From Tausonia pullulans (Eukaryota > Basidiomycota > Tremellomycetes > Cystofilobasidiales > Mrakiaceae): a stretch of DNA of 64,000 nt. Shown piece by piece: positions 8,821-59,674 of the stretch; position 1 is the stretch's first letter, and every line of letters starts with the position of its first letter. The stretch spans positions 62,001 to 126,000 of the forward strand of contig OX637637.1 in NCBI GenBank assembly GCA_951802195.1, written 5' to 3'. A program made the position numbers and the translations under genes. The notes beneath the pieces were generated by a model. The model was not told the origin of the DNA, did no database searches, and saw nothing but the letters and a program-made list of their open reading frames with translations.

Positions 8821-11363
8821 GGTAAGATATTAAGATGACCAGATACACCAAGCATTGGCTATGGACCAGCCATACTTCCCCACCCCAGACCTGCTTGTCA
8901 CCCAGGATCGATGTCGGCGCCGACCGCAGTTCCATCCATCTGGTCCCTACGAGCTATCCACCTCGTACTCGACTGCCAGTGTGTCTGCCGGATCGTAGAC
9001 GCGATCTTGCGGATTTCCTCGTCCGTGACAGGGTCGAGGGCTGCGATCTTGCTGTACCTCCGCCTCCGGACGGATCGCCATGTCCGGGCAACAAAGATGC
9101 AGTGGAAGAGGAAGGCCGCCCTCGGCGGCGACGGTGTCGGGCAGACAAGCGTCTGGAGGGAGGGAGGATGGGAGGGGGGTGAAGGAGAGGCACGCGCTGC
9201 CGCAGCCGCCCAGATAGCGCGCACGACGGGACACGGCTCGTCGAAGAGGTGGAAGAAGGACTCGACGGGGGCCATCAGGCACAGCGCACATCGCTTGGAC
9301 CTGTTGTGCGGCGTAGCGGTTCCGTCGGCGAGGAATGCCGCAGCAGTATGCTTTCCTGGGTGGAGACTGTACAGCGAGAAGCGGTGGGCCAAGTCGACGT
9401 CTTCGGGCGACGCTCGGGACACGGCCTTGAGCAGGCACCACTGACGCTTCCAGTCGACCTTGGTCAGCGCCGGAAAGTGGTCCTGCCAGCCCTTTGGGAT
9501 GATGAGGCCGCGGTTGGCTAGAGTACGACTGTGTGCGCCGTGGGGCTCACGAGGGGCGTTCAGCCGGCCGAGGTTTGTGTGGCTAGGAAGGAGACCCAGC
9601 CGCAACTGGCTATCTGTACCGAACGTAGACATCCAGTGGACAGTGTTCCTCCAGCGGTTTTGATTCCAGTAGCTCGTGTCAAAGCTGATTTCTTCGAACC
9701 ATGCCCGGAGGTAAGCCTGCCATCGTGCAGGGAGAGCTCTTCGGAGCATTGGGATGGCATTCCACCAGACGGCTGGGAAGAACCATTGACCTTCCACTGG
9801 GGAAAGGAATACGCCTAGCCAGCTGAAATTGGCGGGCCGAGGTCCTCTGATGAACTCTCCATCCCTGAAGATGGTGCGAGTCAGCATTCTATAGGCCCCT
9901 GGGTCAAGGCTCATGGTATGGATGATCCGCTTGCGAATACGGATCGATGCGGGAAGCTCCGGTTGGAAGAGCACATCGCCAGCCCACTGGGCGCGCGCTT
10001 TGATGAGCTGGAATCGGAGTGGCGTGAAGCCGAAGCCGCCGAGGTCTCGAGGGGTTTCCAGACGCTCCCTGCTGACGTCGTGGTGTTTCGATCGGTAGAG
10101 GGACTTGTAGGCCGTTGCCTCGAGGTCTGCCAGGATATCGTCTGGGCACGGCAGGAAGCGGTCCAGGTAGATGATCTTCGAGTAGATGTACTGGTTGATG
10201 ACGTTGCATCGCGCAAGGAGAGGGAGGTCGTGCAGCGGGATGCGCGCAAGTCGAGCCTTCAGTTTGCCGATGACATCTCGCCAGCAAGCAGGCACGTTGA
10301 CCGTGCGACCACATGGGACGCCGAGGAAGTCGAATGAAAGCGTTTGGACGCGCCAATCGTGGTACATCGTTGGCGCATCCGTCCGGCATGACCCTAGAGG
10401 ATACAGGAGTGATTTCTGGTAGTTCAGCTTGCTTGCTGCGGCTTTCTCGTACTCTCGGAGGGAGACCGTCGCCTCGTCGACCTCCGACCAGGTCCGACAA
10501 CGGATACTGAGATCGTCTGCAAAGAGGAGGACCTTCCGCTCATGTAGAGGGGGTGGATTGGCCGGTGGGAGGCGATGGCGGAGCATACATGCCAGCGGCT
10601 CCAGAAGGAGAGCAAAGATCGTCGGTGCCGCGGGATCGCCCTGGCGGACACCAGACCGGATGTCGATGGCTTGGCCCATCCATCCGTTGATCATGAGCCG
10701 AGCTGTCTGAGAGGTCATCGTTGAGGTGATCCACGCAGCGGCGCGCGGACCGAACCCCATGTGGCTGAGGCAGGGGCCAACAAAGTCGTGCGACACTCTG
10801 TCGTATGCCTTCTCAAAGTCGACTTGGGCGAGGACGCCAGGTAAAAGGTCTTCGTCGTCAATGGCGAGCTGGAGAGAGGAGATGTTGCGACCCGAGTCGC
10901 GGCCAGGGAGGAAGCCTGTCTGGTCCCCGTCGATGAGGGTGTCCACGACGGTGAGCAGGCGGCTGTTGATGGCAAGGGAGAAGATGCGAGCGTCAACGTT
11001 GATGAGCGAGATCGGACGGTAGTTGGCAATCTGGTCGCGATCTCCCTTCTTCTTGAAGATCAGATGGATATGGGCCTCGCGCTGTGAGGCGGATCGGAGG
11101 CCTGTCTCCGGGACGAGGTTCAGCAGGCTGAGGAGGACCGGGCCGACGACAGCCCATGTGGCCTGGTAGAACTCGACGGGGATCCCGTCGCTTCCTGGTG
11201 TCTTGTTACGGTTCGATCGGAACGTGGCCCGCCTGAGCTCGTCCAGTTCGAAGGGTTTCTCGAGGGTCCGACTCTGGGAGTTGTCGAGTGTGTTGGTGAC
11301 ATATCGGAGGACGTTGGCGTGCTCGGCAGCTGGCGACGTCTTGGTCTCATAGAGAGTTGTGTC
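8821..11363 (-). mobile_element. 5'-truncated non-LTR retrotransposon (LINE)
   Basis: A single open frame of 822 codons (8898-11366, minus) codes for a LINE reverse transcriptase. Visible RT motifs are NYRPISL (about residue 116), GFLPGRD (151), DFEKAYDRV (183), GVRQGDP (239) and FADD (282). A C-terminal zinc-binding segment (RCALCLMAPVE ... H ... C) is typical of the zf-RVT region. No apurinic endonuclease domain or ORF1 is present, so the 5' part is missing. The apparent Met comes from flanking DNA. CCATTAGAAAA flanks both ends (left about 8810-8820, right 11365-11375) and looks like a target-site duplication. The frame is open throughout, so the insertion is probably young. No poly(A) tail is obvious at the left (3') end. 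Confidence 0.85.
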
Positions 11364-11410
11364 CATTAGAAAAAATTAAAATGACCATGGTAGAGCGTTG
11401 AAAGGAGATG
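11364..11410 (+). repeat. Right target-site copy and displaced cassette flank
   Basis: Contains the second CCATTAGAAAA followed by AAAATGACCATGGTAGAGCG, which is contiguous with R1 at 56986-57034. This supports LINE insertion into a pre-existing cassette. Confidence 0.65.
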
Positions 11411-11515: not shown

Positions 11516-11702
11516 GAGAACGTCGGGCGAGGCGCCGTGGGAAGAGGGTTGGTCGAACCACTGGGGATGGTTGGCCGGACGGCGTGATGGGCGCCGTGGG
11601 AGGGGGGTTGGTCGAACCACCGGGGATGGTTGGCCGGACGGCGTGATGGGCGGGCGCCGTGAGAGGGGGGGGGGGGGTTTGGTCGAACCACCGGGATGGT
11701 TA
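11516..11702 (+). repeat. Tandem repeat, unit about 65 bp
   Basis: About 2.6 copies of a unit containing GGCGCCGTGGGA, GGTTGGTCGAACCACC and GGGATGGTTGGCCGGACGG. The unit includes the palindrome GGTTGGTCGAACCA-type arms. It sits only in the first tRNA cassette and is missing at the equivalent position in the second. Confidence 0.8.
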
Positions 11703-11778
11703 TTTCTTTTGGCTCATTTCGCATGAAGATAGTGATACTGCTTTGGGCGCTGCTGTCAGCTTCTGTCTTTGTGACACT

Positions 11779-11926
11779 GACCCAGTGGTGTAGTGGTATC
11801 ACGCGTCCTTCGGGCTTTCATAACCCGCCCCACATCGGGGTAGCGATCTGGACGGTCTCCTTCATTCGAGGGAGACGGTTCATATCGATCATGGACGAGG
11901 TCCCCGGTTCAAATCCGGTCTGGGTC
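11779..11926 (+). tRNA. tRNA-Pro(CGG) with 77-nt intron, copy 1
   Basis: Acceptor stem GACCCAG pairs perfectly with CTGGGTC. The D arm is GTG...CAC. Anticodon stem CGTCC (11804-11808) pairs with GGACG (11893-11897). The loop TTCGGG gives anticodon CGG. The intron 11815-11891 lies directly after position 37. The T loop is TTCAAAT, with one mismatch at the base of the T stem. A TTTT terminator follows. The identical gene recurs at 57124. Confidence 0.85.
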
Positions 11927-12321
11927 CTTTTGTCCCCCCTGTCACGGCCAAAGCGGCTAACCTCACGCGTTTCGTATGCATGCGCTGGCAGGGTTGCGTC
12001 TGATGCATCTAGTGGAGGTGAGACGACGTTGCCGGGGTCGGCGCTGGCGTGTGCAAGATGGGGCGGGTGGGATGAGGTTCCCGCCGCGCCTCAACTGATG
12101 GGCGCCGTCTTCAGAGCTCCAGTGGTTAGTGCCAGTGGAAGTCAGGCTGCCTTGGTAGATCTCTTGTGCTGCCAGGGACGCCAGAAGAGCGCAAGGCAGG
12201 CCCCCGTCTCCGAGGTGGAGAGTTCGCGCGCTCATCCATCAGCGACGGCTTTGGAATCGTAGATCTTCCTTCACACAGGCAGGCCCCTTGACACTGGGCA
12301 ACGAGTTGCAAAAAAAGGATC

Positions 12322-12466
12322 TGATCGATCAGGGACTCGAACCCTGGTATCTGGCGTTATGATGAGGAGCTCTGCCCCGCTCTACGTTCCTGGACACCCA
12401 GGAACCTACAAGGGGACAGAAAGTCGCCACAAGCCAACGCCCTAACCACCTAGACTAATCAATCAT
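12322..12466 (-). tRNA. tRNA-His(GTG) with 71-nt intron, copy 1
   Basis: Acceptor stem TGATTGA/TCGATCA (one G-U), D stem GTC/GGC, anticodon stem TTGGC/GCCAG, loop TTGTGG giving anticodon GTG, and T arm CAGGG-TTCGAGT-CCCTG. The intron 12357-12427 sits at the 37/38 site and contains a stable internal hairpin (TTCCTGG...CCAGGAA). A run of seven T follows the 3' end on the minus strand. The first base being T rather than G is unusual for tRNA-His. Confidence 0.8.
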
Positions 12467-12612
12467 TGCGTTGAGATGAAGAGTGACAGCGGGGTGGCTC
12501 AAGTGTTTGCTGCGTGAAAGCTTCACCCTCCAATTGTGTGCGGGCACGAAGAATGGGCGCGAGCTCTGACGGTTGTCTGTAGACTGATGCGCCGTGGCGC
12601 GCGCGCTACAGT

Positions 12613-12679
12613 GCCCCCTTCCCCTTCCCCTTCCCCTTCCCCTTCCCCTTCCCCTTCCCCTTCCCCTTCCCCCCCCCCC
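12613..12679 (+). repeat. (CCCCTT)n microsatellite ending in poly-C
   Basis: About nine units of CCCCTT followed by a run of C. The matching site in the second cassette (57973-58013) has only about three units, so the tract length differs between the two copies. Confidence 0.9.
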
Positions 12680-13008
12680 GCCCTTTCCTTCCCGCTTCCT
12701 CCCACTGACTACGGTTGTTGTACGGTTAAGCTGCAGAAGACTCGATGGTTAGAACTCCAGGAACAAAATTCCTCTCCGTTTGATCCATGATCCATATATT
12801 GAATGCAAAGCAATTAATAGCCATTCTCCACCGGAATTCCTTGTCTCTGCTTTCAGCCTGATATCACCTGTATCGTTTCGAATGAGATAAGGGCTTGAAG
12901 CCAGGCCACTGAGGGCTGTGTCAGCAGAGTTGGCGGCGTAGGATGAATGGCTTGCCTCTTGCAATTGGCGCGCTCGCCCACCTCGACTCCACGGCAAAAG
13001 GAATGTCT

Positions 13009-13110
13009 TCAGAACCGAGTGTACTAACCATCTATACTACACCGCCGTGCCTTGTACATGCTCGTACAGGCGGACAGGCAGTGCCCGGACTCGAACCGAG
13101 GTTGCTCGGA
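13009..13110 (-). tRNA. Permuted tRNA-Gln(CUG), copy 1
   Basis: On the minus strand the 3' half (13110-13076: T38, CCGAG, T arm, CACTGCC, discriminator T) comes first. A 29-nt linker (13075-13047) follows, then the 5' half (13046-13009: GGCGGTG, D arm, CTCGG, TTCTGA). TTTT follows 8 nt downstream. The DNA just upstream of T38 differs from the other three copies (an AT-rich sequence instead of GATCT), so this copy may have lost part of the processing signal. See copy at 56679 for the full structure. Confidence 0.8.
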
Positions 13111-13202
13111 AAATATATCTCAACGTGAAGATGTCAACATCGGTTTGATGCGACAACAGCAGCTCAGAGGAGACACGTCCTGGCCGTACAATGCAAAGGG
13201 AT

Positions 13203-56325: not shown

Positions 56326-56410
56326 TGATCGATTAGTCTAGGTGGTTAGGGCGTTGGCTTGTGGTTCATTCAGAACGCCAGATACCGGGGTTCGAGTCCC
56401 TGATCGATCA
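56326..56410 (+). tRNA. tRNA-His(GTG) with 11-nt intron
   Basis: Acceptor TGATCGA/TCGATCA, D stem GTC/GGC, anticodon stem TTGGC/GCCAG, loop TTGTGG (anticodon GTG), intron 56365-56375 (TTCATTCAGAA), T arm CGGGG-TTCGAGT-CCCTG. TTTTT follows. The exonic sequence is almost the same as the two minus-strand His genes, but their intron is about 70 nt. Confidence 0.85.
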
Positions 56411-56678: not shown

Positions 56679-56780
56679 TCCGAGCAACCTCGGTTCGAGT
56701 CCGGGCACTGCCTGTTCGCCTGTACGAGCATGTACAAGGCACGGCGGTGTAGTATAGATGGTTAGTACACTCGGTTCTGA
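56679..56780 (+). tRNA. Permuted tRNA-Gln(CUG), plus-strand copy
   Basis: 3' half first (56679-56713): T38, CCGAG, CAAC, T arm CTCGG-TTCGAGT-CCGGG, CACTGCC, discriminator T. A 29-nt linker (56714-56742) follows. The 5' half is last (56743-56780): GGCGGTG, TA, D arm GTAT...GTAC, A26, CTCGG, TTCTGA. When joined at 37/38 the halves give seven acceptor pairs (one G-U), a D stem, five anticodon-stem pairs, a five-pair T stem and the loop TTCTGAT with anticodon CTG. The loop and neighbours match yeast tRNA-Gln(CUG) as I remember it. B box GGTTCGAGTCC lies upstream of the A box, the reverse of a normal gene. TTTT at 56790-56793 is the likely Pol III terminator. The flanks hold GATCT before T38 and AGAC after A37, which can pair over three bases. 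Confidence 0.88.
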
Positions 56781-56853
56781 AGACAATCCTTTTGCCGTGG
56801 AGTCGACGAGATGAGCGATGGAAGAGGCCGACTTTTTGTTTGTTTGTTTGTTT

Positions 56854-56998: not shown

Positions 56999-57123
56999 AT
57001 AAAATGACCATGGTAGAGCGTTGAAAGGAGATGACGATTTCATTATTATTTTTTGGCTCATTTCGCATGGAGATAGTGGTACTGCCTTTGGGCGTTGCTG
57101 TCAGCTTCTGTCTTTGTGACACT

Positions 57124-57271
57124 GACCCAGTGGTGTAGTGGTATCACGCGTCCTTCGGGCTTTCATAACCCGCCCCACAACGGGGTAGCGATCTGGACGG
57201 TCTCCTTCATCCGAGGGAGACGGTTCACCTCGATCATGGACGAGGTCCCCGGTTCAAATCCGGTCTGGGTC
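57124..57271 (+). tRNA. tRNA-Pro(CGG) with 77-nt intron, copy 2
   Basis: Same structure as 11779-11926 with acceptor GACCCAG/CTGGGTC, anticodon loop TTCGGG and intron after position 37. Exons are identical; the intron differs by a few bases. TTTTT follows. Confidence 0.85.
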
Positions 57272-57677
57272 CTTTTTGTCCCCCTGTCCCGGCCAAAGCG
57301 GCTAACCTCACGCGTTTCATATGCATGCGCTGGCAGGGTTGCGTCTGATGCATCTAGTGGAGGTGACACGACGTTGCCGGGGTCGGCGCTGGCGTGGGGC
57401 GGCGTGTGCAAGATGGGGCGGGTGGGATGAGGTTCCCGCCGCGCCTCAACTGATGGGCGCCGTCTTCAGAGCTCCAGTGGTTAGTGCCAGTGGAAGTCAG
57501 GCTGCCTTGGTAGATCTCTTGTGCTGCCGGGGACGCCAGAAGAGCGCAAGGCAGGCCCTCGTCTCTGAGGTGGAGAGTTCGCGCGCTCATCCATCAGCGA
57601 CGGCTTTGGAATCGTAGATCTTCCTTCACACAGGCAGGCCTCCTTGACACCGGGCAACGAGGTGCAAAAAAAGGATC

Positions 57678-57821
57678 TGATCGATCAGGGACTCGAACCC
57701 TGGTATCTGGCGTTATGATGAGGAGCTCTGCCCCACTCCACGTTGCTGGGTGTCCAGGAACATACGAGAGGACAGAAAGTCGCCACAAGCCAACGCCCTA
57801 ACCACCTAGACTAATCAATCA
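57678..57821 (-). tRNA. tRNA-His(GTG) with about 70-nt intron, copy 2
   Basis: Same as 12322-12466. Exons are identical; the intron is one base shorter and has several substitutions. A run of seven T follows the 3' end. Confidence 0.8.
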
Positions 57822-57972
57822 TTGCGTTGAGATGAAGTGTGACAGCGAAGTGGCTCACCTGTTTGCTGCGTGAAAGCCGCGCCTTCCAATTGTGTGCGGG
57901 CACGGAGAATGGGCGCGAGCTCTGACGGTTGTCTGAAGACTGATGCGCCGTGGCGCGCGCGCTACAGTGCCG

Positions 57973-58013
57973 CCCTTCCCCTTCCCCTTCCCCCCCTCCC
58001 CCCCCCCCCCCCG
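57973..58013 (+). repeat. Short CCCCTT tract and poly-C
   Basis: Contracted form of the microsatellite at 12613-12679, in the same cassette position. Confidence 0.85.
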
Positions 58014-58344
58014 CCCTTTCCTTCCCGCTTCCTCCCACTGACTACGGTTGTTGTACGTTTGAGCTGCAGAAGACTCGATGGTTAGTACTCCAGGAACAAA
58101 AGTCCTCTCCGTTTGATCCATGATCCATATATTGAATGCAAAGCAACTAATAGCCATTCTCCACCGGAATTCCTTGTCTCTGCTTTCAGCCTGATATCAC
58201 CTGTATCGTTTCGAATGAGATAAGGGCTTGAAGCCAGGCCACTGAGGGCTGTGTCAGTAGAGTTGGCGGCGTAGGATGAATGGCTTGCCTCTTGCAATTG
58301 GCGCGCTCGCCCACCTCCTCGACTCCACGGCAAAAGGATTGTCT

Positions 58345-58446
58345 TCAGAACCGAGTGTACTAACCATCTATACTACACCGCCGTGCCTTTTACATGATCG
58401 TACAGGCGGACAGGCAGTGCCCGGACTCGAACCGAGGTTGCTCGGA
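58345..58446 (-). tRNA. Permuted tRNA-Gln(CUG), cassette copy 2
   Basis: Both halves are identical to the plus-strand copy (3' half 58446-58412, linker 58411-58383, 5' half 58382-58345). The linker differs by a few bases. AGATCT precedes T38, and AGACAATCCTTTT follows A37 on the minus strand. Confidence 0.87.
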
Positions 58447-59572
58447 AGATCTTTGCTCACTGTGGAGAACAGACAGAAATGCGTTACCGAACGATGCACG
58501 CTTTGATGCGCCTCTTTCGCGAGCAGGTTCTCACATCTCAACAACGTCTGCTGCTCTGACTTTGTCTGTCCTTACTTCGCATGCTTGCGGTCGCCCAGTG
58601 ACAGCGCGGGCTGCAAGGAGGTCTACTAAAAGCACAAATGAATGTGGCGTGCGCCGAGCTGGTTGCGCAGCGGTCAACGAAGTGCCAAATAGTTGCTTGC
58701 CAGTTGCTCCCTCACTAGCTCCGGCGATGTGGAGCAAAGGTGTCCGGCTGCTTGTGGCTGGTACGTGAAACGCACAGTCGCTCTCCTCCTCCTCACGAAG
58801 TGAGAAGGTTGAATAAGGAAGGGTTACGCACGCGTACTCCTATGATCGGCTTTGCGTGGTCAAGCACCGCATGCGGTCCGTTCCTCTATGGAAATTCTCC
58901 TTATGGACGTCCAGTTAGGTCGAAATCAAGAGACATATAAGCGCTGGGCCAGGCAACAGATCAATTAAGGACTCCTTGGTTCGGAACGATCCACTGGGAT
59001 GCTGCTCACGATGCCACGCATGCGGTGACTTGATGTGGGACCGAGAGAATCCGAGTACTGCCCCGACAGTGTTGCACGCTGTGTTCCTGTCAACAGTTGA
59101 CACGGGCAGCAGAGTTCGCATGGACGGAGGAGGGAGGTGGTAGGTCTGGCTGCCACCGAAAGAGCGGGCCCTCCCCATCTTGTGCTCTTTCCGTGCTCCT
59201 TTAGGATCTCTTGACTGACCGACCTGTAGTTCGTCTTCTGAATCTTGCGATCCGTAACCTTGGCTCTCTCTCGTCACTTACCAATGGGTCTCAGATGTCG
59301 TCACATACGAATGCAACTTCAACGATAGACACGAGTCCAGAGTCTCGACTCAATTCAACGGTCCATGGGCACGCATCCCCTAGGCTCTCCACATCACAGA
59401 GCGCTGCGTGGTGGCTCTCAATATATACAGGCGGCGATGAGATCGGCACACCTATTGCTTCCCTTCCATGCATCTGCTCTGGCTGGAGCTCTTTGCAGCG
59501 CCGACATCAGGACGGCCTTGAAGAGAGGGTTGCTTTCCATATGTCTCGACCCCACGGCAAAAGGATTGTCCT
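58447..59572. other. Intergenic between tRNA genes
   Basis: No protein gene recognised. ORFs up to about 120 codons occur on both strands without family-like text. DNA next to each Gln copy (GAGAACAGACAG-type) is shared between 58460 and 59690. Confidence 0.4.
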
Positions 59573-59674
59573 CAGAACCGAGTGTACTAACCATCTATAC
59601 TACACCGCCGTGCCTTGTACATGCTCGTACAGGCGGACAGGCAGTGCCCGGACTCGAACCGAGGTTGCTCGGAA
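59573..59674 (-). tRNA. Permuted tRNA-Gln(CUG), solitary copy
   Basis: Same 102-nt layout (3' half 59674-59640, 29-nt linker, 5' half 59610-59573). Mature halves are identical to the other copies. The base just after A37 is G instead of A, outside the mature tRNA. It is followed by GGACAATCCTTTT. No tRNA-Pro or tRNA-His lies beside it. Confidence 0.87.

Follow-up and report, generated by a model that had tools for sequence, protein, structure and literature searches.

The window analysed here is the whole stretch of 64,000 nucleotides, and on its plus strand, at positions 56679-56780, lies a tRNA-Gln(CUG) gene with the two halves of the tRNA in swapped order. The 3' half, running from T38 to the discriminator base T73, is encoded upstream (56679-56713) and is followed by a linker of 29 nt between both acceptor-stem ends (56714-56742), which takes up a hairpin when the precursor is folded without constraints. 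The 5' half, positions 1 to 37 and ending in A37, is encoded downstream of the linker (56743-56780). The B box, GGTTCGAGTCC (tRNA positions 52-62; 56692-56702), thus stands ahead of the A-box region of the D arm, TAGTATAGATGG, which was read directly from the sequence at 56750-56761. A TTTT, by type an RNA polymerase III terminator, occupies 56790-56793 and begins 10 nt past A37. The joined halves have complete acceptor, D, anticodon and T stems and a loop reading TTCTGAT with anticodon CTG, and they meet exactly at the eukaryotic intron site, 37/38. A sequence-only reading had proposed a permuted tRNA-Gln(CUG) at this one site, with the 3' half first, a 29-nt linker, a complete cloverleaf, the B box before the A box and a TTTT beyond the 5' half. 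Re-reading of coordinates, order and parts confirmed all of these features, the circle form is called tRNA-Gln(ctg) by ARAGORN, and the gene proved to be one of a wider family, with three further copies in the window and 17 elsewhere in the genome.

The same reading had assigned the DNA to a fungal nuclear genome. This assignment agrees with a Fungal_trans domain encoded in the window and with the named proteins among the matches listed for it, which are basidiomycete. The ALAD protein, with exons stitched by eye, has its best match in Phaffia rhodozyma (77%). The conventional tRNA genes of the window that carry 37/38 introns include those for Tyr, for His (one intron of 11 nt and others of ~70 nt) and for Pro(CGG) (~77 nt). 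Three genes, at 56327-56410, 57677-57821 and 12321-12465, with introns of 11 and ~70 nt, were read by eye as tRNA-His(GUG) and are labelled Thr, SeC or Tyr by ARAGORN; the Pro isotype is likewise a reading by eye and differs from the ARAGORN name. A segment of ~1.4 kb is duplicated within the window (11700-13111 and 57043-58447, 94% over 1429 bp); it includes a permuted tRNA-Gln gene besides genes for tRNA-Pro(CGG) and tRNA-His, whose introns measure 77 and 70 nt. An open frame of 825 aa on the minus strand (8898-11375) encodes a reverse transcriptase domain (PF00078) and probably belongs to a retroelement.

A covariance-model search of the window identified four permuted tRNA-Gln(CUG) genes in total. 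The other three are all on the minus strand: 58345-58446 (3' half 58412-58446, 5' half 58345-58382), 59572-59673 (3' half 59639-59673, 5' half 59572-59609) and 13009-13110 (3' half 13076-13110, 5' half 13009-13046). The gene at 56679-56780 scores 82.9 bits (E ~1e-28 in the window) and all four score between 82.8 and 82.9 bits; the next match reaches 25.1 bits, and the weaker matches sit at or beside conventional tRNAs. The model, R1, was made from six sequences, three of the permuted family and three rearranged conventional tRNAs of the same genome. Because it was built partly from this gene family, independent checks weigh more than its score. ARAGORN calls tRNA-Gln(ctg) in 21 of 21 precursors of the family when these are closed to circles and in none of the 21 as lines, and it called no tRNA among 2100 mononucleotide-shuffled circles. 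Standard pairs fill 63 of the 63 pair cells of the three mature forms that the family encodes. The permuted structure at 56679-56780 is not due to chance. A circle scan around 78 B boxes called 25 places with contradictory anticodons, and its noise is too high for use. Other permuted isotypes were sought with R1 over 273 kb, made up of the window plus 69 of 98 loci picked for tRNA matches, many of which overlap; only the Gln copies scored above 30 bits. Applied to the window, ARAGORN and the Rfam tRNA model at its gathering threshold detect none of the four permuted copies, so standard tRNA finders may report Gln(CUG) as missing.

We searched the genome (23.9 Mb, 21 contigs) and identified 21 intact permuted copies on seven contigs (C1, C11, C12, C14, C16, C17 and C18), the 3' half being upstream of the 5' half on the same strand at every locus. 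The pattern CTCGGTTCTGA occurs at 30 places in the genome, of which 21 are the permuted genes and nine have no tRNA context visible by eye. A 22nd copy (L098:234-365, contig C18) is decayed: its anticodon is TTG, its stems are mismatched, closing it to a circle yields no tRNA call either, and there is no TTTT in the following 35 nt. This copy shows how an unused permuted gene drifts.

A normal tRNA-Gln(CUG) gene elsewhere in the genome, the check suggested by the sequence-only reading, was sought by similarity and by pattern, and none was found. The mature 73-mer has no contiguous match genome-wide. All 42 of its matches are halves, 21 to the first 38 bases (or to bases 8-38 or 8-40) and 21 to bases 39-73 (or 39-65), and every pair is in swapped order, so that the mature sequence is present solely as swapped halves and no conventional Gln(CUG) gene is recovered by similarity. 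The pattern search asked for a B box downstream of TCTGR or TTCTGA, either 14-44 nt later, which admits introns up to ~30 nt, or 45-75 nt later, for introns of ~31-61 nt. The first spacing gave 56 matches, none recognised as Gln by eye: 28 are Arg(ACG), five Leu(AAG), four Tyr, two Ser and two Pro, one is the leader of a permuted copy, and the remaining 14 show no recognisable tRNA. With introns of up to 120 nt allowed, ARAGORN predicted no conventional Gln gene in the loci covering 30 of the 56 matches, including seven of the 14 unassigned ones. The second spacing gave eight matches, again none that is Gln by eye. The permuted family thus appears, from these sequence searches, to be the sole nuclear source of tRNA-Gln(CUG).

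It could be argued that the permuted genes are expressed and that the main work is done by a conventional Gln(CUG) gene too diverged to be recognised. Our survey used similarity and patterns rather than a complete inventory, with 63 of 897 tRNA candidates scored, and the 14 unassigned matches leave some room for such a gene. None of the 56 and eight pattern matches was recognised as Gln, however, and every one of the 21 sites located with the mature sequence is permuted; we therefore regard a diverged conventional gene as unlikely. The source of CAA decoding was sought in a similar manner. No conventional Gln(UUG) gene was found genome-wide in the form of U33-U34-U35-G36-A37 with a B box 14-44 nt later, and no permuted Gln(UUG) gene was recognised among seven of 20 pattern matches. 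The one TTG-bearing match, at L098:234-365, is the decayed permuted copy with broken stems. CAA decoding may be supplied by a permuted gene, by a gene with a long intron or by one with a different B box.

The joined halves of the 21 copies yield only three mature sequences, represented by 15, 5 and 1 copies. These are identical within each class despite differing linkers, of which there are 14 different sequences, with lengths (T73 excluded) of 4, 5, 7, 8 (four copies), 11, 23, 24, 29 (nine copies) and 46 nt (two copies). When one copy from each of ten linker groups is compared with the others without gaps, the 3' halves are 93% and the 5' halves 95% identical, against 26-31% in the upstream flank, 41% over +1 to +8 and 25% over +21 to +40. 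BLAST detected short common flanks between some groups (among them C11/C14, C17:580/C18, and the C12 copies L046/L047) and long common flanks among the C18 copies. Since some linker groups have short flanks in common, the number of independent lineages is lower than ten. Across the three mature forms both sides of the acceptor stem are altered at four of the seven pairs, a result equalled in 13 of 500 shuffles with n=3 rows. The acceptor strands co-vary although they are separated by the linker and encoded in reversed order, and each locus carries a matching pair of variants. Position 72 is followed by T (T73) in all 21 copies; U73 is typical of eukaryotic tRNA-Gln, and T73 fits. TTTT begins 8-18 nt past A37 in each of the 21, against a background of 2% at positions across the window, and occurs inside the permuted unit in none. 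A tandem-duplication origin was considered by searching for remnants of the outer halves up to 600 nt on either side, which gave only three matches of 10-11 bases (E 0.13-0.49).

These patterns bear on the possibility that the copies are dead or parasitic, a family of pseudogenes or tRNA-derived repeats that duplication has spread and that yields no tRNA. Part of the C18 family does lie within recent segmental duplications (L056/L058, 94% over 1429-1432 bp), some other groups have short flanks in common, and one decayed copy exists. Nevertheless, such a family would have kept three classes internally identical in mature sequence across 14 kinds of linker of 4 to 46 nt, changed its acceptor pairs jointly and retained T73 and TTTT in every intact copy, and no other source of Gln(CUG) was found. 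We consider it improbable that the family is dead or parasitic. The genes are very probably working circularly permuted tRNA-Gln(CUG) genes, broken at 37/38 and matured through a circular RNA, as judged from the sequence. In Saccharomyces cerevisiae, tQ(CUG)M is CDC65, which appears among genes with a G1 phenotype (PMC5348972), so that loss of tRNA-Gln(CUG) would not be expected to be tolerated.

The maturation pathway outlined by the sequence-only reading, with a splice-like junction, a circle and removal of the linker, is drawn by analogy with algae. RNA polymerase III would transcribe one linear precursor consisting of leader, 3' half, linker, 5' half and trailer, which would adopt a cloverleaf fold whose anticodon loop is open. 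Cleavage after position 37 and before position 38 by the tRNA-splicing endonuclease would follow, and a Trl1-type ligase would join both tRNA ends into a circle that retains the linker. RNase P and tRNase Z would excise the linker, after which CCA would be added. For algal permuted tRNAs the same pathway is described on biochemical evidence, with intermediates detected experimentally (PMC3978253). The genome encodes the splicing-endonuclease domain PF01974 at two places and, once, the Trl1-type ligase domain PF08302, and thus has important components of the apparatus that the circle route would need. Splicing at 37/38 is presumably in use, since conventional tRNA genes of the window have introns there. 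Before it can work, the Gln(CUG) RNA must probably be circularised and then cut again; as the permuted family is apparently the only source of this tRNA, normal reading of CAG would depend on the circle route.

The two halves might instead be made as separate RNAs and joined in trans, as in a split tRNA, and the anticodon stem could pair in trans as well. Separate transcription units were rejected, given that the halves are adjacent with no TTTT between them. None of the 21 units contains a TTTT, the halves always keep the same order and lie 4-46 nt apart beyond T73, and the two acceptor strands of a locus always carry matching variants; a split tRNA is accordingly very improbable. Weakest of all is the reading of the loci as conventional genes with giant introns, in which splicing would link a 5' half to the 3' half of the next copy downstream. 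ARAGORN with long introns allowed proposes introns of 763 and 1125 for tandem copies, but an intact same-strand 3' half follows within 1500 nt in only two of the 21 cases, and TTTT comes 8-18 nt after every 5' half. A conventional intron-containing gene would have its 5' half upstream, and the mature sequence has no contiguous match in the genome. This reading is scarcely credible.

With the circularly permuted reading preferred, the DNA elements fit an algal-type mechanism, with two weak points, the junction motif and transcription. In every copy the outer helix can be supplied by the anticodon stem; no strict bulge-helix-bulge junction was detected in the permuted copies. Pairing between leader and trailer in 13 representatives shows no excess (mean -6.7 versus -6.2 kcal/mol across families, sd 2.1), and no conserved leader-trailer helix extends beyond the anticodon stem among them. 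Nine of the 21 copies have a purine at -3. The remaining 12 have T there, preceded each time by A at -4, and a T at -3 cannot make the usual pair with U32. The same context closes the introns of the window's long-intron His and Pro(CGG) genes when position 38 is placed by eye; in the introns of Tyr, Lys, Asp and the short His gene the base at -3 is G. The yeast-type endonuclease is described as measuring from the mature domain besides recognising the junction (PMC3978253), and T at -3 thus does not rule out cutting. The free precursor fold lies below the bare open cloverleaf in all 21 cases (-29.3 to -47.3 versus -20.8 to -23.6 kcal/mol, with leader, linker and trailer kept unpaired in the latter). 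The joined tRNA alone also folds 4-5 kcal/mol below its own cloverleaf, and since that cloverleaf is likewise not favoured, the free-folding comparison is no test.

Transcription is the least understood step. According to PMC3978253, the inverted order of B and A boxes should not suit TFIIIC binding. We detected no uniform TATA-like element upstream of the fungal genes: TATA or TTAT is found within 90 nt in two of ten representatives, and ATATAT lies just upstream in some other C18 copies. In four of the ten representatives (L046, L048, L054 and L055) the 3' half is preceded, at a distance of 40-50 nt, by the word CATCAA, which may be a promoter element or a chance occurrence.

Permuted genes broken at 37/38, termed type II, are described for Cyanidioschyzon merolae, Ostreococcus and Micromonas (PMC3978253, citing Soma 2007 and Maruyama 2010). 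As presented there, the algal genes resemble the fungal ones in having the 3' half upstream, the 37/38 break, a short linker, a T run past the 5' half and no encoded CCA, and Table 1 of that paper includes a permuted Gln(CTG) in C. merolae with a 31-bp intervening sequence. The intervening sequences of its permuted cases span 1-74 bp. The fungal linkers, of 4-46 nt past T73 with no internal terminator and a T run downstream, fall within the type II features, and on the DNA-level features examined, apart from the junction motif, the fungal genes belong to that type. They differ in that the host is a basidiomycete, that no uniform upstream TATA-like element is seen, and that 21 copies of one isoacceptor are present, whereas in Table 1 each anticodon of a species has a single gene or, at the most, two. 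In the green alga Auxenochlorella, permuted genes with reversed halves were noticed from an incomplete tRNAscan-SE set (PMC12636532). The archaeon Thermofilum pendens also has permuted tRNA genes, but these are listed with the break at 59/60 in the T loop, encoded CCA and linkers of 1 and 7 nt (PMC3978253 Table 1). Ordinary fungal tRNA genes with 37/38 introns have the same junction as the permuted genes, and presumably use the same endonuclease and ligase, but differ in their normal half order and linear splicing product. A search of viral and prokaryote genome contigs gave no matches to the permuted pattern. The sequence-only reading knew of no permuted tRNA gene from a fungus, and our search of the open literature, judged by titles and abstract starts, likewise returned no report of one. 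In kind the fungal genes are like the algal ones; what appears to be new is that they occur in a basidiomycete, in so many copies and apparently in place of the ordinary gene.

We think it likely that the ordinary tRNA-Gln(CUG) gene has been wholly replaced by permuted genes amplified to 21 copies, that RNA polymerase III reads them with the B box ahead of the A box (or starts without TFIIIC), and that CAG is decoded by way of a circular intermediate. In Trichosporonales and relatives, 51-1455 tRNA genes per genome are reported by tRNAscan-SE, and some tRNAs, with His or Asp named, are given as absent in some species (PMC12820176); these absences may merit a recheck that allows for permutation. 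If our reading is true, these genes would, as far as our searches show, extend permuted tRNA genes beyond algae, nucleomorphs and archaea for the first time. They would mean that the permuted arrangement can arise in opisthokonts and take over a whole isoacceptor, and that permuted genes can be amplified and held under strong selection. They would also make it possible to test the circle pathway, the substrate rules of the endonuclease and transcription from inverted A and B boxes in a eukaryote other than an alga.
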